Shown in pieces: positions 46,598 through 53,069 of a DNA stretch of 64,000 nucleotides. The DNA comes from Nitrospirota bacterium (GTDB lineage Bacteria; Nitrospirota; Thermodesulfovibrionia; SZUA-242): contig JACRHH010000007.1 of NCBI GenBank assembly GCA_016212095.1, forward strand, positions 1-64,000. The letters are read 5' to 3'. Numbering within the stretch: position 1 is the first letter of the stretch; each line of letters starts with the position of its first letter. The position numbers were made by a program, and so were the translations under genes. Under the pieces are notes generated by a model. It saw nothing but the letters and a program-made list of their open reading frames with translations, was not told the DNA's origin and did not search any database.

Positions 46598-46630
46598 AAA
46601 ACCCCATGCCATTGCGGCATGGGGTTTTTT
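46598..46630 (+). terminator. Intrinsic terminator after glnA
   Basis: AAAACCCCATGCC and GGCATGGGGTTTT form a long stem around ATTGC, and the right arm runs into a T-run. It is a textbook Rho-independent terminator 25 bases beyond the glnA stop. Confidence 0.95.
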
Positions 46631-46716: not shown

Positions 46717-46732
46717 TGGCACGCCTGTTGCC
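46717..46732 (+). promoter_or_regulatory. Sigma-54 (RpoN) promoter of the fliK-flgD-flgE genes
   Basis: TGGCACGCCTGTTGCC matches the RpoN consensus TGGCAC-N5-TTGC exactly in both the -24 and -12 elements. Counting twelve bases from the C of TTGC puts the transcription start at about 46743, two bases before the fliK ATG. RpoN control of hook genes is established in many flagellated bacteria. Confidence 0.9.
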
Positions 46733-46744
46733 TAAACGTTCGGC

Positions 46745-48310
46745 ATGAACATACCAAACATAGTTCTAAACGCTCTTTCGACGGCCAACACGCCCGCAGT
46801 TGCAACGGCTGACGCCGGAAATCCTCAATTAGCCGCAACGTTCAGCAATATTCTTGACGCAGTGGGCAGGGCTGAAACTTCCGCGCCGGCAGAGGCAAGC
46901 CTGATTCCTGTTGCCGAAACATCTGATGGTGATGACAACAGCGGCGTTATCGACTCCGTCGCGGCATCCATAATCCTTCTGTTTAGCGGATTCGAGTTTC
47001 CGGCCAACACGCTTCCGGCTCAGATGGAACAAGTGCCGAACGAAATGCCGGTTGGCCAAGACGTTCCGGTTGCGGATTCATTAACGGCTGCCACCGGTTT
47101 GATTTCCAGCTTTCCCATTCAGGCGGCGGTAACAGCGCCAATGGACATAGCCGCGCCTGTTTATCCGGAAACTGTCGGCAATATGGAGATTCCCCCCAAT
47201 GAGAATGCCGTCGCGCCGGTGGCCGATGCCAACGCAATGAATATGCCTGCCGATGCAAGCGGCGAGGCATTTGCCTCACAAATCGCACAGACTTCAAACG
47301 GCGAATCAACGGCAATAAATTTAATCTTTCCGGCAAAGCCGGATGCGCCGATGAAACAGGCGGCGTCCGCAATGCAAACCGGAGCCGGCAACAATCCGGC
47401 AGTTGCGGACGCTGATGACATCGGCAAGGCGAATCAGCAGACCGGCATGAAATCTCAATTAGCCAATCTCGCGCCTGAACCTGCTCCCAAACCTGCTCCT
47501 GAACTGGCGCCGATAATGACTGCATCAAACGTTTTCGTCATTGAATCATCAGCGAAAACAGGCATCCCCGTAGCGCATGTTATGCCTGATGGCGTTTCGA
47601 GCGAACGAGGCAGGGCAAGCACACAGAATGTCGCCAGGCAGAAGCATGGCGAAATAAAATACGAAGGCGAGGCCCCAGAAATGAGAACCGAGGCGATATT
47701 CGCGGATACGGAGTCTGAAGCTCTGATCCACGCAGACATGGCAAAGGGCAACAGCATGGAGGGCATCATTAACCGGGTGGGGTTGCCTGAAAAGCATGAG
47801 TCCGCCCAAAGCGCCATCTCTCCCGGCAATGTATCCGCCATAAGCGCATACGAGACGGTTCGCACGATGGATCATGCATTCGGCATTGCCGAATCGGCCA
47901 AATTGGCCGAATCGGCTGAATCGCCGGATGTTCGGGCGAATGTCGTCGCGCAGCTTCAGGAGCCTGTAACCCGCGCGATCAACCGTGGCGCGGATAATAT
48001 TCGCATGCGGCTACAGCCTGAGGGGCTTGGAGAGCTTCGCGTCAATATCAGAATGGTTGACGGAGGCGTGCGCCTCGAAATCATTACGGACAAGATCCTT
48101 TCCCGCCAGATTCTGGAACAGGGACTGCCTGAGCTTCAGAGCCTCATGCGTGAGGACGGCATATCGCTGAAGAACGTGCGCGTTGAATATGGCGGCGCTG
48201 ATGGCGGCGGAGATCGTGAAACTCCGCGCCGGCGGGATGAACATCCGCCTTACCGGCATAACAATGGGAATGGAAAGCGACGCGAGAACTTCGCCGGATA
48301 TTTCGCCTGA
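46745..48310 (+). CDS. fliK: Flagellar hook-length control protein
   Basis: A 521-residue FliK. The long N-terminal and central part is Ala/Pro/Asn-rich and unstructured, as expected of the molecular ruler. The C-terminal Flg_hook domain is clear at ~415-485 (MRLQPEGLGELRVNIRMVDG...LEIITDKILSRQILEQGLPELQSLMREDGISLKNVRVE). It is exported during hook assembly and switches FlhB specificity at the right hook length. No Shine-Dalgarno sequence precedes the ATG, and the sigma-54 site puts the RNA 5' end almost on the start codon. flgD and flgE follow in order. Confidence 0.9.
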   Translation: MNIPNIVLNALSTANTPAVATADAGNPQLAATFSNILDAVGRAETSAPAEASLIPVAETSDGDDNSGVIDSVAASIILLFSGFEFPANTLPAQMEQVPNEMPVGQDVPVADSLTAATGLISSFPIQAAVTAPMDIAAPVYPETVGNMEIPPNENAVAPVADANAMNMPADASGEAFASQIAQTSNGESTAINLIFPAKPDAPMKQAASAMQTGAGNNPAVADADDIGKANQQTGMKSQLANLAPEPAPKPAPELAPIMTASNVFVIESSAKTGIPVAHVMPDGVSSERGRASTQNVARQKHGEIKYEGEAPEMRTEAIFADTESEALIHADMAKGNSMEGIINRVGLPEKHESAQSAISPGNVSAISAYETVRTMDHAFGIAESAKLAESAESPDVRANVVAQLQEPVTRAINRGADNIRMRLQPEGLGELRVNIRMVDGGVRLEIITDKILSRQILEQGLPELQSLMREDGISLKNVRVEYGGADGGGDRETPRRRDEHPPYRHNNGNGKRRENFAGYFA

Positions 48311-48331
48311 TTCGTGGAGGCTTGACAAGAG

Positions 48332-49009
48332 ATGATTACATCGGTAGCAAAAACGGACGCATCACCGGCACAGTCGCAGATAACCGGCGGCAAGGACATC
48401 GGAAAACAGGATTTCCTGAAGCTGTTCATAAAACAGTTGCAGTCCCAGGATCCGCTGTCGCCGATGGACAGCGCCGATTTCACGGCGCAGCTTGCACAGT
48501 TCAGCTCGCTGGAACAGCTTACCAACAGCAACGACAAGCTTGGACAGCTCATATCCATGCAGAATTCCCAGACCGGCCTGATGGCCTCGTCCATAATCGG
48601 GAAAACTGTCATGGCCAACGGCGATTCCGTTTACATGAACGGCAAGAATGGTGTTGATCTTGCCTACTCGATAGGCCGTGACGTGGACAAGGTGAACGTG
48701 AACGTATACGACACGGACGGCAAGCTTGTTCGAAGCCTGAGCGGCAATGCAGTATCTGCCGGAAGCCGTTCGATTCGATGGGATGGAACCGACAATAACG
48801 GTAACAGTCTCCCGGCGGGAACCTACGACTTCACCGTATCGGGAACCGATTCAGGCGGAGTAACAGTGGATGCCGCTACATTCACGACCGGAACGGTCGA
48901 GCGGGTCTCATTCGCAAACGGCATCCCCATGGTTACGGTTAACGGAAGCACACTGCCCATGAGTTCAGTGGTCAATATCGAGGATATGAAGCAGCAAGGA
49001 GGATATTAA
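48332..49009 (+). CDS. flgD: Flagellar hook assembly (capping) protein
   Basis: 225 residues with the FlgD N-terminal signature (GKQDFLKLFIKQLQSQDPLSPMDSADFTAQLAQFSSLEQLTNSN) and the C-terminal FlgD Ig-like/tudor part (VNVNVYDTDGKLVR, IRWDGTDNNGNSLPAGTYDFTVSG). It caps the growing hook and is lost on completion. It lies 21 bases after fliK and one base before flgE, so the three are co-transcribed. Confidence 0.95.
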   Translation: MITSVAKTDASPAQSQITGGKDIGKQDFLKLFIKQLQSQDPLSPMDSADFTAQLAQFSSLEQLTNSNDKLGQLISMQNSQTGLMASSIIGKTVMANGDSVYMNGKNGVDLAYSIGRDVDKVNVNVYDTDGKLVRSLSGNAVSAGSRSIRWDGTDNNGNSLPAGTYDFTVSGTDSGGVTVDAATFTTGTVERVSFANGIPMVTVNGSTLPMSSVVNIEDMKQQGGY

Positions 49010-49010
49010 A

Positions 49011-50618
49011 ATGGCAATTCTCACATCGCTCTACACAGGAATCAGCGGGCTTGGCACAAACGGATCGTCGCTCAGCGTTATCGGCGACAACATCGCCAAC
49101 ATGAATACAGTTGCGTTCAAAGGCTCGCGCGCCAGCTTTGGCGATATTCTGAGCGGCTCGCTGACAGGCGGAGGCGGAGGCCAGTCGCAGGTTGGCAGAG
49201 GCGTTTTCCTCACATCCGTGGGTTCAGACTTCAGCCAGGGATCGTTCCAGACAACTTCAAACACGCTCGACATGGCGATCGACGGAGACGGCATGTTCAT
49301 AGTCGATTCCGCCGAGGGCAGGCGCGCATATACTCGCGCGGGTTCTTTTCGTCTAAACAAGGACGGCTATATAACAAATCCTGAGGGCATGAGGCTGCAG
49401 GGGTATGCGTTCGACGCCAACGGCGTATCAACAGGTGTGTTAGGCACAATCAATCTTGGCACGCTCGGCAGCTCGCCGAACCCGACATCGTCAATCGCCA
49501 TCACCGCCAATCTCGATTCGCGGTCGAGCGGCAGCAATATCGTGGTGGACGCCACGAACAATACAATAGTATTTACCGACACCGCGTCGCGCACAGCCAC
49601 GATAACCGCCGGAACCTACACCGGAGCCGGACTTGCCACGGCGATAAAGACAGCATTGGAAGCGGCCAACGCGGCTGCCGACACATACACAGTGACGTTC
49701 GATTCAAGCAGTAACCGCTTCAATGTGGCCAACGACGCTGGCAATGCCAATGCAATCGACCTGAACTGGGAAGACGCGTCAACAACTGCCGGAACGATTC
49801 TTGGATTCAATAACTCGAATCATGCGGCGATTGCGGTGGGAAGCTCAGGCAACAGCGACACTGCGGCGTCGTTATACAAAGCCCCGTTCGATGCCGACAA
49901 TCCGGCCACCACATCCGATTTCTCGGCAGCCGTAACCGTTTACGACTCGCTGGGCAACGACAACCAGGTTACGGTTTACTTCCGCAAAAATCAGGTTTTA
50001 TCTACCGGCAACGCTTGGCAGTGGTATGCCGTTACTCCGGCTTCGTCATCGACAAGCGGCGTCAACACGATCGGCGCATCCGGAACCCTGACGTTCTCGG
50101 TCAATGGCGCATATTCCGACATGACCACGGATACCGGCCCGGATTTCGATTTTTCGGGCGGCGCCACGCAGAGCCAGACAATAGACTTCGATTTCACCAC
50201 GCTCACGCAGTTTGCAACAACATCGTCAACAACATTCCAGAGCCAGGACGGGTACGCGCCCGGATCGCTTCAGAGCATGTCGATCAATACGGACGGAGTG
50301 ATTTCTGGAAGCTTCACAAATGGCCAGAGTCGTAATGTGGCGCAGGTGGGCCTGGCGAAATTCACCGCGCCTGAAGGCCTTGTGAAACTCGGCGGAAACC
50401 TCTTTACCGAATCGCCTAATTCTGGCCAGCCGCTTATCGGCGAGCCAAACACCGCCGGACGCGGGAAACTGCTGTCCGCCACGCTGGAGCTTTCGAACGT
50501 TGACCTCGCAAGCGAATTCGTGGCGATGATAGCGGCACAGCGCGGATTTCAGGCAAACTCCAAGGTGGTGAGCACCACGGATGAGATCATGAACGAACTT
50601 GTGAACCTCAAACGCTAA
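49011..50618 (+). CDS. flgE: Flagellar hook protein
   Basis: A 535-residue hook subunit. The N-terminal rod/hook domain reads LYTGISGLGTNGSSLSVIGDNIANMNTVAFKGSRASF; middle FlgE domains follow (LDMAIDGDGMFIV, RAYTRAGSFRLNKDGYI, VYDSLGNDNQVTVYF); the C-terminal part is LELSNVDLASEFVAMIAAQRGFQANSKVVSTTDEIMNELVNLKR. The central region is somewhat enlarged and contains an NNTIVFTD/TITAGTYTGAGLATAI segment like that in FlgE of several anaerobic lineages. The gene ends at a strong terminator. Confidence 0.95.
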   Translation: MAILTSLYTGISGLGTNGSSLSVIGDNIANMNTVAFKGSRASFGDILSGSLTGGGGGQSQVGRGVFLTSVGSDFSQGSFQTTSNTLDMAIDGDGMFIVDSAEGRRAYTRAGSFRLNKDGYITNPEGMRLQGYAFDANGVSTGVLGTINLGTLGSSPNPTSSIAITANLDSRSSGSNIVVDATNNTIVFTDTASRTATITAGTYTGAGLATAIKTALEAANAAADTYTVTFDSSSNRFNVANDAGNANAIDLNWEDASTTAGTILGFNNSNHAAIAVGSSGNSDTAASLYKAPFDADNPATTSDFSAAVTVYDSLGNDNQVTVYFRKNQVLSTGNAWQWYAVTPASSSTSGVNTIGASGTLTFSVNGAYSDMTTDTGPDFDFSGGATQSQTIDFDFTTLTQFATTSSTTFQSQDGYAPGSLQSMSINTDGVISGSFTNGQSRNVAQVGLAKFTAPEGLVKLGGNLFTESPNSGQPLIGEPNTAGRGKLLSATLELSNVDLASEFVAMIAAQRGFQANSKVVSTTDEIMNELVNLKR

Positions 50619-51654: not shown

Positions 51655-52782
51655 ATGAAAGTGGTTGATGTTGCGCCGCGCAATATTGTTGCCGCGCCGG
51701 GTGTCGAGCCGCGCTTCCGCATTGCCGAGGGCGAAATGCTGGTGGCGCGTGTTGAGCGAGTGGAAGAGGGCGGCATGGTGCGCCTTGCCCTTGACGGGGG
51801 GCGAAGCGTTCTGGCAGAAACCACGCTCAAGAATCTCGCGCCTGGCGATACCGTCCGCGTGAGGGCGGAGTTGCCGCCTGAGCAGATCATTCTGCGCGCA
51901 GAAAAGACAATGGCGGAGTCGCCTGAGGCGGGAATCCTGCGGAACCTGCTTTCGCAGTTGAAGCCTGCCGATCTTGCCGATCCGTCCGGTTCCATGCTTG
52001 CCGGGCTTGCACGGCTTGCCGGTTTCCTCCAAACGCCGGAGGCCTCGGCATCTCTGCCGGTGGCGTTGCGCGCGAAGCTTGCCGCCATTGCCGACGCAAT
52101 GGCCGCGCTCCTGAAAAGCGGCGACGCCGACGGCATTGACGGTGAAACGCTCAGAAGCATGATCGAAAACTCAGGACTTTTCATGGAGTCCCGGCTTGCA
52201 TCTGGCAAGGACATTTCCCGCGATCTGAAGGCTATGCTGCTGCAATTGAAGCAGGGGCTGGATGATGCAGCCGAGGGCAGTTCAGCGAAAAGCACGATGA
52301 AGCCGGGCGATGTCGTTGTGGCATCGTTCGGCAAAGCCGTGGGCGACGAGATCGGAAACATCGAGGCCCGTCAGGCCGTGAACGTGCTGAACCAGAGCGT
52401 TGAGCCGCGTCAGGTGGTGATACCTATCCCGCTTGGGCAGGATTTCCGGGAAGCCGAACTGGTCATATCGGAGGATGACCAGGCCGCAATTGAGCACGGA
52501 GATGCAAAACGATTCAGGGTGCGGCTGATACTGACGATGTCGAATATCGGGGAGATCAGGGCGGATGCGGTGCAGGGACGCGATGGTGTTTCCATCGGCA
52601 TAAGGACAGGAAACGAAAAGGCGTACTCGCTGCTCAGCGCAGGTCTCGATGAGCTTGAAACCAGCCTCAGGGAGAAGGGCGTCAGCGTAAGCACCGCCGT
52701 TTCGCTGCGTCAGGAGGCGCGGGAGATGGAGGCGCGACCGCAGGTTCACGCAAAGAGTCTGCTGATAGATGTGAGGGCATGA
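51655..52782 (+). CDS. FliK-like hook-length/secretion-control protein, second copy
   Basis: A 375-residue protein with AGGA five bases before the ATG. The N-terminus is a small beta barrel (FRIAEGEMLVARVERVEEGGMVRLAL...LKNLAPGDTVRVRAEL), the middle is helical, and the C-terminus (LILTMSNIGEIRADAVQGRDGVSIGIRTGNEKAYSLLSAGLDELETSLREKGVSVS) has the fold pattern of the FliK C-terminal domain. It overlaps by ATGA a gene for a stand-alone FlhB cytoplasmic tail, the arrangement seen in YlqG/YlqH-type pairs. A role in export-gate control is inferred; the partner of this pair is not known for certain. Confidence 0.7.
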   Translation: MKVVDVAPRNIVAAPGVEPRFRIAEGEMLVARVERVEEGGMVRLALDGGRSVLAETTLKNLAPGDTVRVRAELPPEQIILRAEKTMAESPEAGILRNLLSQLKPADLADPSGSMLAGLARLAGFLQTPEASASLPVALRAKLAAIADAMAALLKSGDADGIDGETLRSMIENSGLFMESRLASGKDISRDLKAMLLQLKQGLDDAAEGSSAKSTMKPGDVVVASFGKAVGDEIGNIEARQAVNVLNQSVEPRQVVIPIPLGQDFREAELVISEDDQAAIEHGDAKRFRVRLILTMSNIGEIRADAVQGRDGVSIGIRTGNEKAYSLLSAGLDELETSLREKGVSVSTAVSLRQEAREMEARPQVHAKSLLIDVRA

Positions 52783-53069
52783 GGGAAGAAGACGCAAAAC
52801 CGGAACGCCGACGCGAGGCTGTCGCGCTTCGTTACGACGGGAAAACCGATGAAGCGCCGAAGGTTACGGCCAAGGGGCAGGGACTTGTCGCTGAACGCAT
52901 CATCGATGCCGCGCGCGAGCATGGAATTCCGATGCGTGAAGACCCTGACATCGTCGCGGTTCTTGCGAAGCTTCAGCTTTACGAGGAGATTCCACCTGCG
53001 CTTTACAAGGCGGTGGCGGAGATACTGGCGTTTGTTTACAGGATGAACCGCGTGGCGGCGGCAAAATAA
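52779..53069 (+). CDS. Stand-alone FlhB cytoplasmic-domain homologue (FhlB/YlqH-type)
   Basis: A 96-residue protein like the C-terminal cytoplasmic domain of FlhB: AVALRYDGKTDEAPKVTAKGQGLVAERIIDAAREHGIPMREDPDIVAVLAKLQLYEEIPPALYKAVAEILAFVYR, with the NPTH auto-cleavage segment not present. Such FlhB-C paralogues can partly replace the FlhB tail in export-gate function. It overlaps the upstream FliK-like gene by four bases and converges on the DUF3786 gene. Confidence 0.85.
   Translation: MREEDAKPERRREAVALRYDGKTDEAPKVTAKGQGLVAERIIDAAREHGIPMREDPDIVAVLAKLQLYEEIPPALYKAVAEILAFVYRMNRVAAAK

Follow-up and report, generated by a model that had tools for sequence, protein, structure and literature searches.

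The flagellar gene fliK in the window (the whole 64-kb stretch of DNA that was analyzed) most probably begins where its mRNA begins, with a sigma-54 fliK-flgD-flgE transcript running from the fliK AUG, a leaderless fliK, and flgD and flgE driven by Shine–Dalgarno sequences (SDs). RNA polymerase with RpoN would start this mRNA at the A of the fliK AUG or 1–3 nt before it; because the mRNA would start 0–3 nt before the AUG, fliK would be leaderless, translated from a 5′-terminal AUG without SD pairing, and the other two genes of this mRNA, flgD and flgE, would be translated via their strong SDs. The arrangement would have been inherited and maintained in most Thermodesulfovibrionia, with one lineage having a leader and an SD instead. 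The box, its spacing, the missing SD, their conservation, and the ways in which flgD and the leadered lineage differ are read directly from the sequences; from them we infer the actual 5′ end, the co-transcription of the 3 genes, and leaderless initiation. The features of the region are as follows:

46598–46628, forward strand: terminator-like hairpin 3′ of glnA and upstream of the fliK promoter, a 13-pair stem followed by a T-rich tail.
46717–46731, forward strand: sigma-54 (−24/−12) box TGGCACGCCTGTTGC, exact consensus, with box and spacing conserved in relatives.
46743–46745, forward strand: predicted transcription start.
46745–48310, forward strand: fliK, hook-length control protein, predicted leaderless (PF02120 at residues 410–486, E = 5.1e-15; no SD).
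48316–48320, forward strand: SD (GGAGG) of flgD, seen in the sequence (duplex energy −9.3 kcal/mol).
48332–49009, forward strand: flgD, hook cap protein (PF03963 and PF13860).
48996–49002, forward strand: SD (AAGGAGG) of flgE, seen in the sequence (duplex energy −11.4 kcal/mol).
49011–50618, forward strand: flgE, hook protein (PF07559, PF06429, PF22692, and PF00460).

The protein encoded by fliK has the C-terminal Flg_hook domain of FliK, and its gene is followed by flgD and flgE. A second protein with a FliK Flg_hook domain (E = 3e-8) is encoded on the forward strand at 51655–52782. It is followed by a short open reading frame (ORF; 52779–53069), whose product may be an FlhB C-terminal-like protein.

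The sequence-only reading, made earlier without database searches, had proposed an exact RpoN consensus with a start at about 46743, two bases before an ATG at 46745 that has no SD, and each of these points was borne out, the start as a prediction. The motif TGGCAC-N5-TTGC, with the GG and GC of a sigma-54 promoter at −24 and −12, occupies 46717–46731. It is the sole zero-mismatch match in the window and one of 18 exact boxes in the 2.97-Mb genome (the genome-wide counts coming from pattern searches). Matches with 1 or 2 mismatches occurred at the chance level of shuffled sequence in both window and genome; the fliK box alone is therefore weak evidence, and we relied on positional conservation rather than on motif frequency. 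What raises the fliK box above chance is that, throughout the class, a strong box stands equally far from the start of fliK. The genome contains a single RpoN (PF04552) and 22 strong RpoN-activator domains (PF00158).

The sigma-54 transcription start lies 19 bp downstream of the motif center (PMC4591121), which puts the predicted start at 46743 and leaves a 2-nt leader (GC-AUG), and a pyrimidine-purine initiator (C46744/A46745) would leave a leader of 0 nt. The fliK ATG lies 13 nt past the −12 C, and no start before 46745 is possible because an in-frame TAA occupies 46733–46735. The anti-SD duplex energy before this ATG is +1.2 kcal/mol, that is to say, no SD precedes it. By comparison, for 19 of the 36 long ORFs of the window, one of the first starts is preceded by an SD of −7 kcal/mol or stronger, versus 3.8% of random positions. 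Over its first 90 nt, the predicted fliK mRNA folded no better than shuffled sequences (z = 0.25).

The genome of the window is assigned to the class Thermodesulfovibrionia of the phylum Nitrospirota. The stretch upstream of flgD was collected from 110 places in genomes of the class, with the window as an extra. For each region, a 500-base stretch was searched with a hand-made weight matrix, the sigma-54 box with the highest score close to where the fliK frame begins was chosen on that score alone, and the distances from its −12 C to the in-frame starts were measured. A scorable box (at least 22 of 28) was present in 99 of the fliK-flgD regions, comprising 19 regions of the bulk of family f5, which are leadered, and 80 others. 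In 65 of these 80 regions, spread over 12 families, a fliK ATG or GTG lies 12–14 nt past the −12 C (12 nt, n = 26; 13 nt, n = 33; 14 nt, n = 6), which is the fixed, short, conserved spacing of a leaderless gene. The start codon is ATG in 62 and GTG in 3, and a C or T immediately precedes it in 63 of the 65. The genus g30 belongs to this set, unlike the bulk of its family f5. In G151, a single-contig genome of the class, the fliK spacing is 13 nt. Any other single distance holds at most 10 in-frame ATG or GTG codons among the 80 regions, and chance placement would not put an in-frame start at 12–14 nt in so many of these sequences. The near-leaderless fliK of the sequence-only reading, which had also suggested comparing this spacing among relatives, is thus strongly supported as a prediction.

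The remaining 15 regions depart from 12–14 nt: f18 often has 15–16 nt, two f19 regions have weak boxes, and there are a few others. Many boxes of f10, f15, and f20 carry TTGA or TTGT in place of TTGC, a weaker −12 element. Gene crowding was considered as a cause of the short spacing and rejected, since in 58 regions an interval of 77–486 nt separates the stop codon of the upstream gene from the leaderless start. At one locus, L210 (G075:C169), the leaderless position holds an AUG that runs straight into a stop (ATGTAATG), and the fliK ATG overlaps that AUG; in its relatives L213 and L214, the first ATG is absent.

The conserved spacing also bears on whether most fliK mRNA could instead have a long leader, being made by read-through or at a different promoter, with the sigma-54 box in a secondary role. 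Read-through is possible in some relatives, in which fliI (flagellar export) and its neighbors lie upstream on the same strand. In the window, however, the terminator-like hairpin lies after glnA, and the interval from there to fliK yielded no sigma-70-like site, although the hairpin is modest evidence because 0.7 such hairpins are expected in shuffled sequences. Furthermore, a longer mRNA would still have no SD before the fliK AUG, and this origin leaves the conserved box-to-ATG spacing without a reason. We therefore consider it very improbable.

The leaderless reading is further characterized by the contrast in SD strength between fliK and flgD. Before the 65 leaderless fliK starts, the anti-SD energy has a median of +0.6 and a minimum of −4.0 kcal/mol, so an SD of −7 kcal/mol or stronger occurs in none of them, as in the window. 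By contrast, flgD has such an SD in all 65 of these regions (median −10.8 kcal/mol). In the bulk of f5, the fliK start lies 33–44 nt past the −12 C and is preceded by a strong SD in 19 of 19 regions, each with an anti-SD energy of −8.3 kcal/mol or stronger. This leadered lineage shows that a leaderless fliK is dispensable for a flagellum.

An unrecognised start farther inside the gene, which the sequence-only reading had offered as an option, was not supported. If translation of FliK truly began there, at an in-frame codon preceded by an SD, an ordinary leader would have been mistaken for coding sequence. FliK N-termini do vary fast, and 6 of the 65 leaderless relatives, three of them in one genus, have an in-frame ATG or GTG with an SD within 60 codons. 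However, (i) among the first 119 fliK codons of the window, no in-frame start is preceded by an SD; (ii) the other 59 relatives have none within 60 codons; (iii) in the same-family G002, the next in-frame start is 444 nt past the −12 C; (iv) the residues just past the leaderless ATG are similar within genera; and (v) the recurrence of the in-frame start at 12–14 nt exceeds chance. An internal start is accordingly highly unlikely in our estimate. Substitutions after the ATG numbered 198, 164, and 254 by codon position, and they are not a main argument because the third-position bias is weak. In genus g64 (L227, L229, and L230), all 3 genomes have the leaderless ATG together with an in-frame ATG at codon 38 preceded by an SD of −11 to −12 kcal/mol, and this codon is a possible second FliK start.

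Beyond the class, a leaderless fliK was found in none of 24 boxed regions from other groups (Deltaproteobacteria, Alphaproteobacteria, Nitrospinota, and others), and readable Nitrospirota outside Thermodesulfovibrionia mostly had a leadered fliK or no clear box. In family f25, which belongs to the same phylum and lies outside the class, fliK starts 13 and 15 nt past the −12 C in 2 genomes (L328 and L352), so that a near-leaderless fliK may extend past the class.

Within the genome of the window, the exact boxes before flgF, flgB, nifH, and other genes have leaders of 29–97 nt, most with strong SDs; at flgF (L034), the spacing is 29 nt and an SD is present. A search of this genome for a second leaderless RpoN gene gave no convincing case, and the candidate L082, before a UDP-GlcNAc-epimerase-like ORF, was dropped for its poor box. 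Since the other RpoN genes read in this genome have ordinary leaders, fliK is special there. In several families of the class, flgF-like rod genes have an ATG 11–13 nt after a sigma-54 TTGCW and are predicted to be leaderless, and a few other genes share this spacing:

L330–L333, L335, L286, L287, L291, L342, and L343: flgF-like genes with leaderless spacing.
L348, 904–1803, reverse strand: nifB-like radical SAM gene with leaderless sigma-54 spacing.
L301, 1529–3031, forward strand: cNMP-binding/CBS/DUF294 gene with leaderless sigma-54 spacing.
L334, 628–2400, forward strand: TPR protein gene with leaderless sigma-54 spacing.

These genes favor the reading that a leaderless fliK is merely tolerated, with no regulatory role, in a class that readily uses leaderless sigma-54 genes. 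Hand-made sums, covering the families f4, f5, f12, and f15, likewise gave an excess of matches at leaderless over control spacing in f4 (123 versus 68), f12 (65 versus 30), and f15 (29 versus 12), with little excess in f5 (51 versus 42). On the other side, fliK is the sole convincing case in the genome of the window, and conservation over 12 families suggests some maintenance. Mere tolerance is quite possible, if just short of probable in our judgment, and it carries a weight similar to that of a reading in which the arrangement limits FliK. If the leaderless start does serve a purpose, it is likely that it would keep the FliK yield low against FlgD and FlgE, and it is plausible that it would restrict FliK to mRNA from the sigma-54 promoter, that is to say, to the hook stage. 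As the sequence-only reading had suggested, fliK may be regulated at translation.

A stronger proposal, which we put forward tentatively and regard as rather unlikely, is that a set of RpoN genes in Thermodesulfovibrionia, with fliK foremost, is leaderless by design. With no SD at the AUG, good translation would be confined to mRNA that starts exactly at the activator-controlled sigma-54 promoter; the choice of start would then gate translation, and mRNA reading through from earlier operons would be kept from yielding FliK too early.

That RpoN drives hook genes is textbook knowledge, and leaderless mRNAs have been described mostly for housekeeping promoters, scattered or genome-wide. The RpoN-dependent middle flagellar genes of Proteobacteria and Campylobacter likewise place hook-stage genes behind a sigma-54 promoter, but with leaders of ordinary length and often an SD, of which the Deltaproteobacteria fliK regions read here are examples. 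Leaderless genes are known in bacteria (PMC3160421), and in Deinococcus-Thermus a −10 element lies next to the ORF (PMC12340547). The fliK arrangement resembles both in having a core promoter element whose short distance to the start codon is fixed. It differs from that of Deinococcus-Thermus, in which the −10 hexamer of the housekeeping sigma factor fills this role and does so widely in the genome; at fliK the role falls to the activator-requiring sigma-54 −24/−12 element, which the genome of the window shows in leaderless form at fliK alone, as far as tested. The primary transcriptome of Leptospira interrogans contains many mapped leaderless mRNAs, genome-wide, and cell-motility genes were under-represented among its leaderless genes in one condition (PMC5243855). 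This Leptospira is also a bacterium with both RpoN and leaderless mRNAs, which are mapped there and predicted here; its leaderlessness spans the genome and has no tie to RpoN, unlike that of fliK in Thermodesulfovibrionia. Nothing in the open-licence literature searched described a sigma-54 flagellar gene, fliK included, with a conserved leaderless start.

For work on the class, gene callers that demand an SD may misplace the fliK start in Thermodesulfovibrionia, and the f5 lineage, with its leader and SD, provides a natural control. If true, a class-wide, gene-specific leaderless sigma-54 start would couple a flagellar checkpoint to the way in which translation is initiated.
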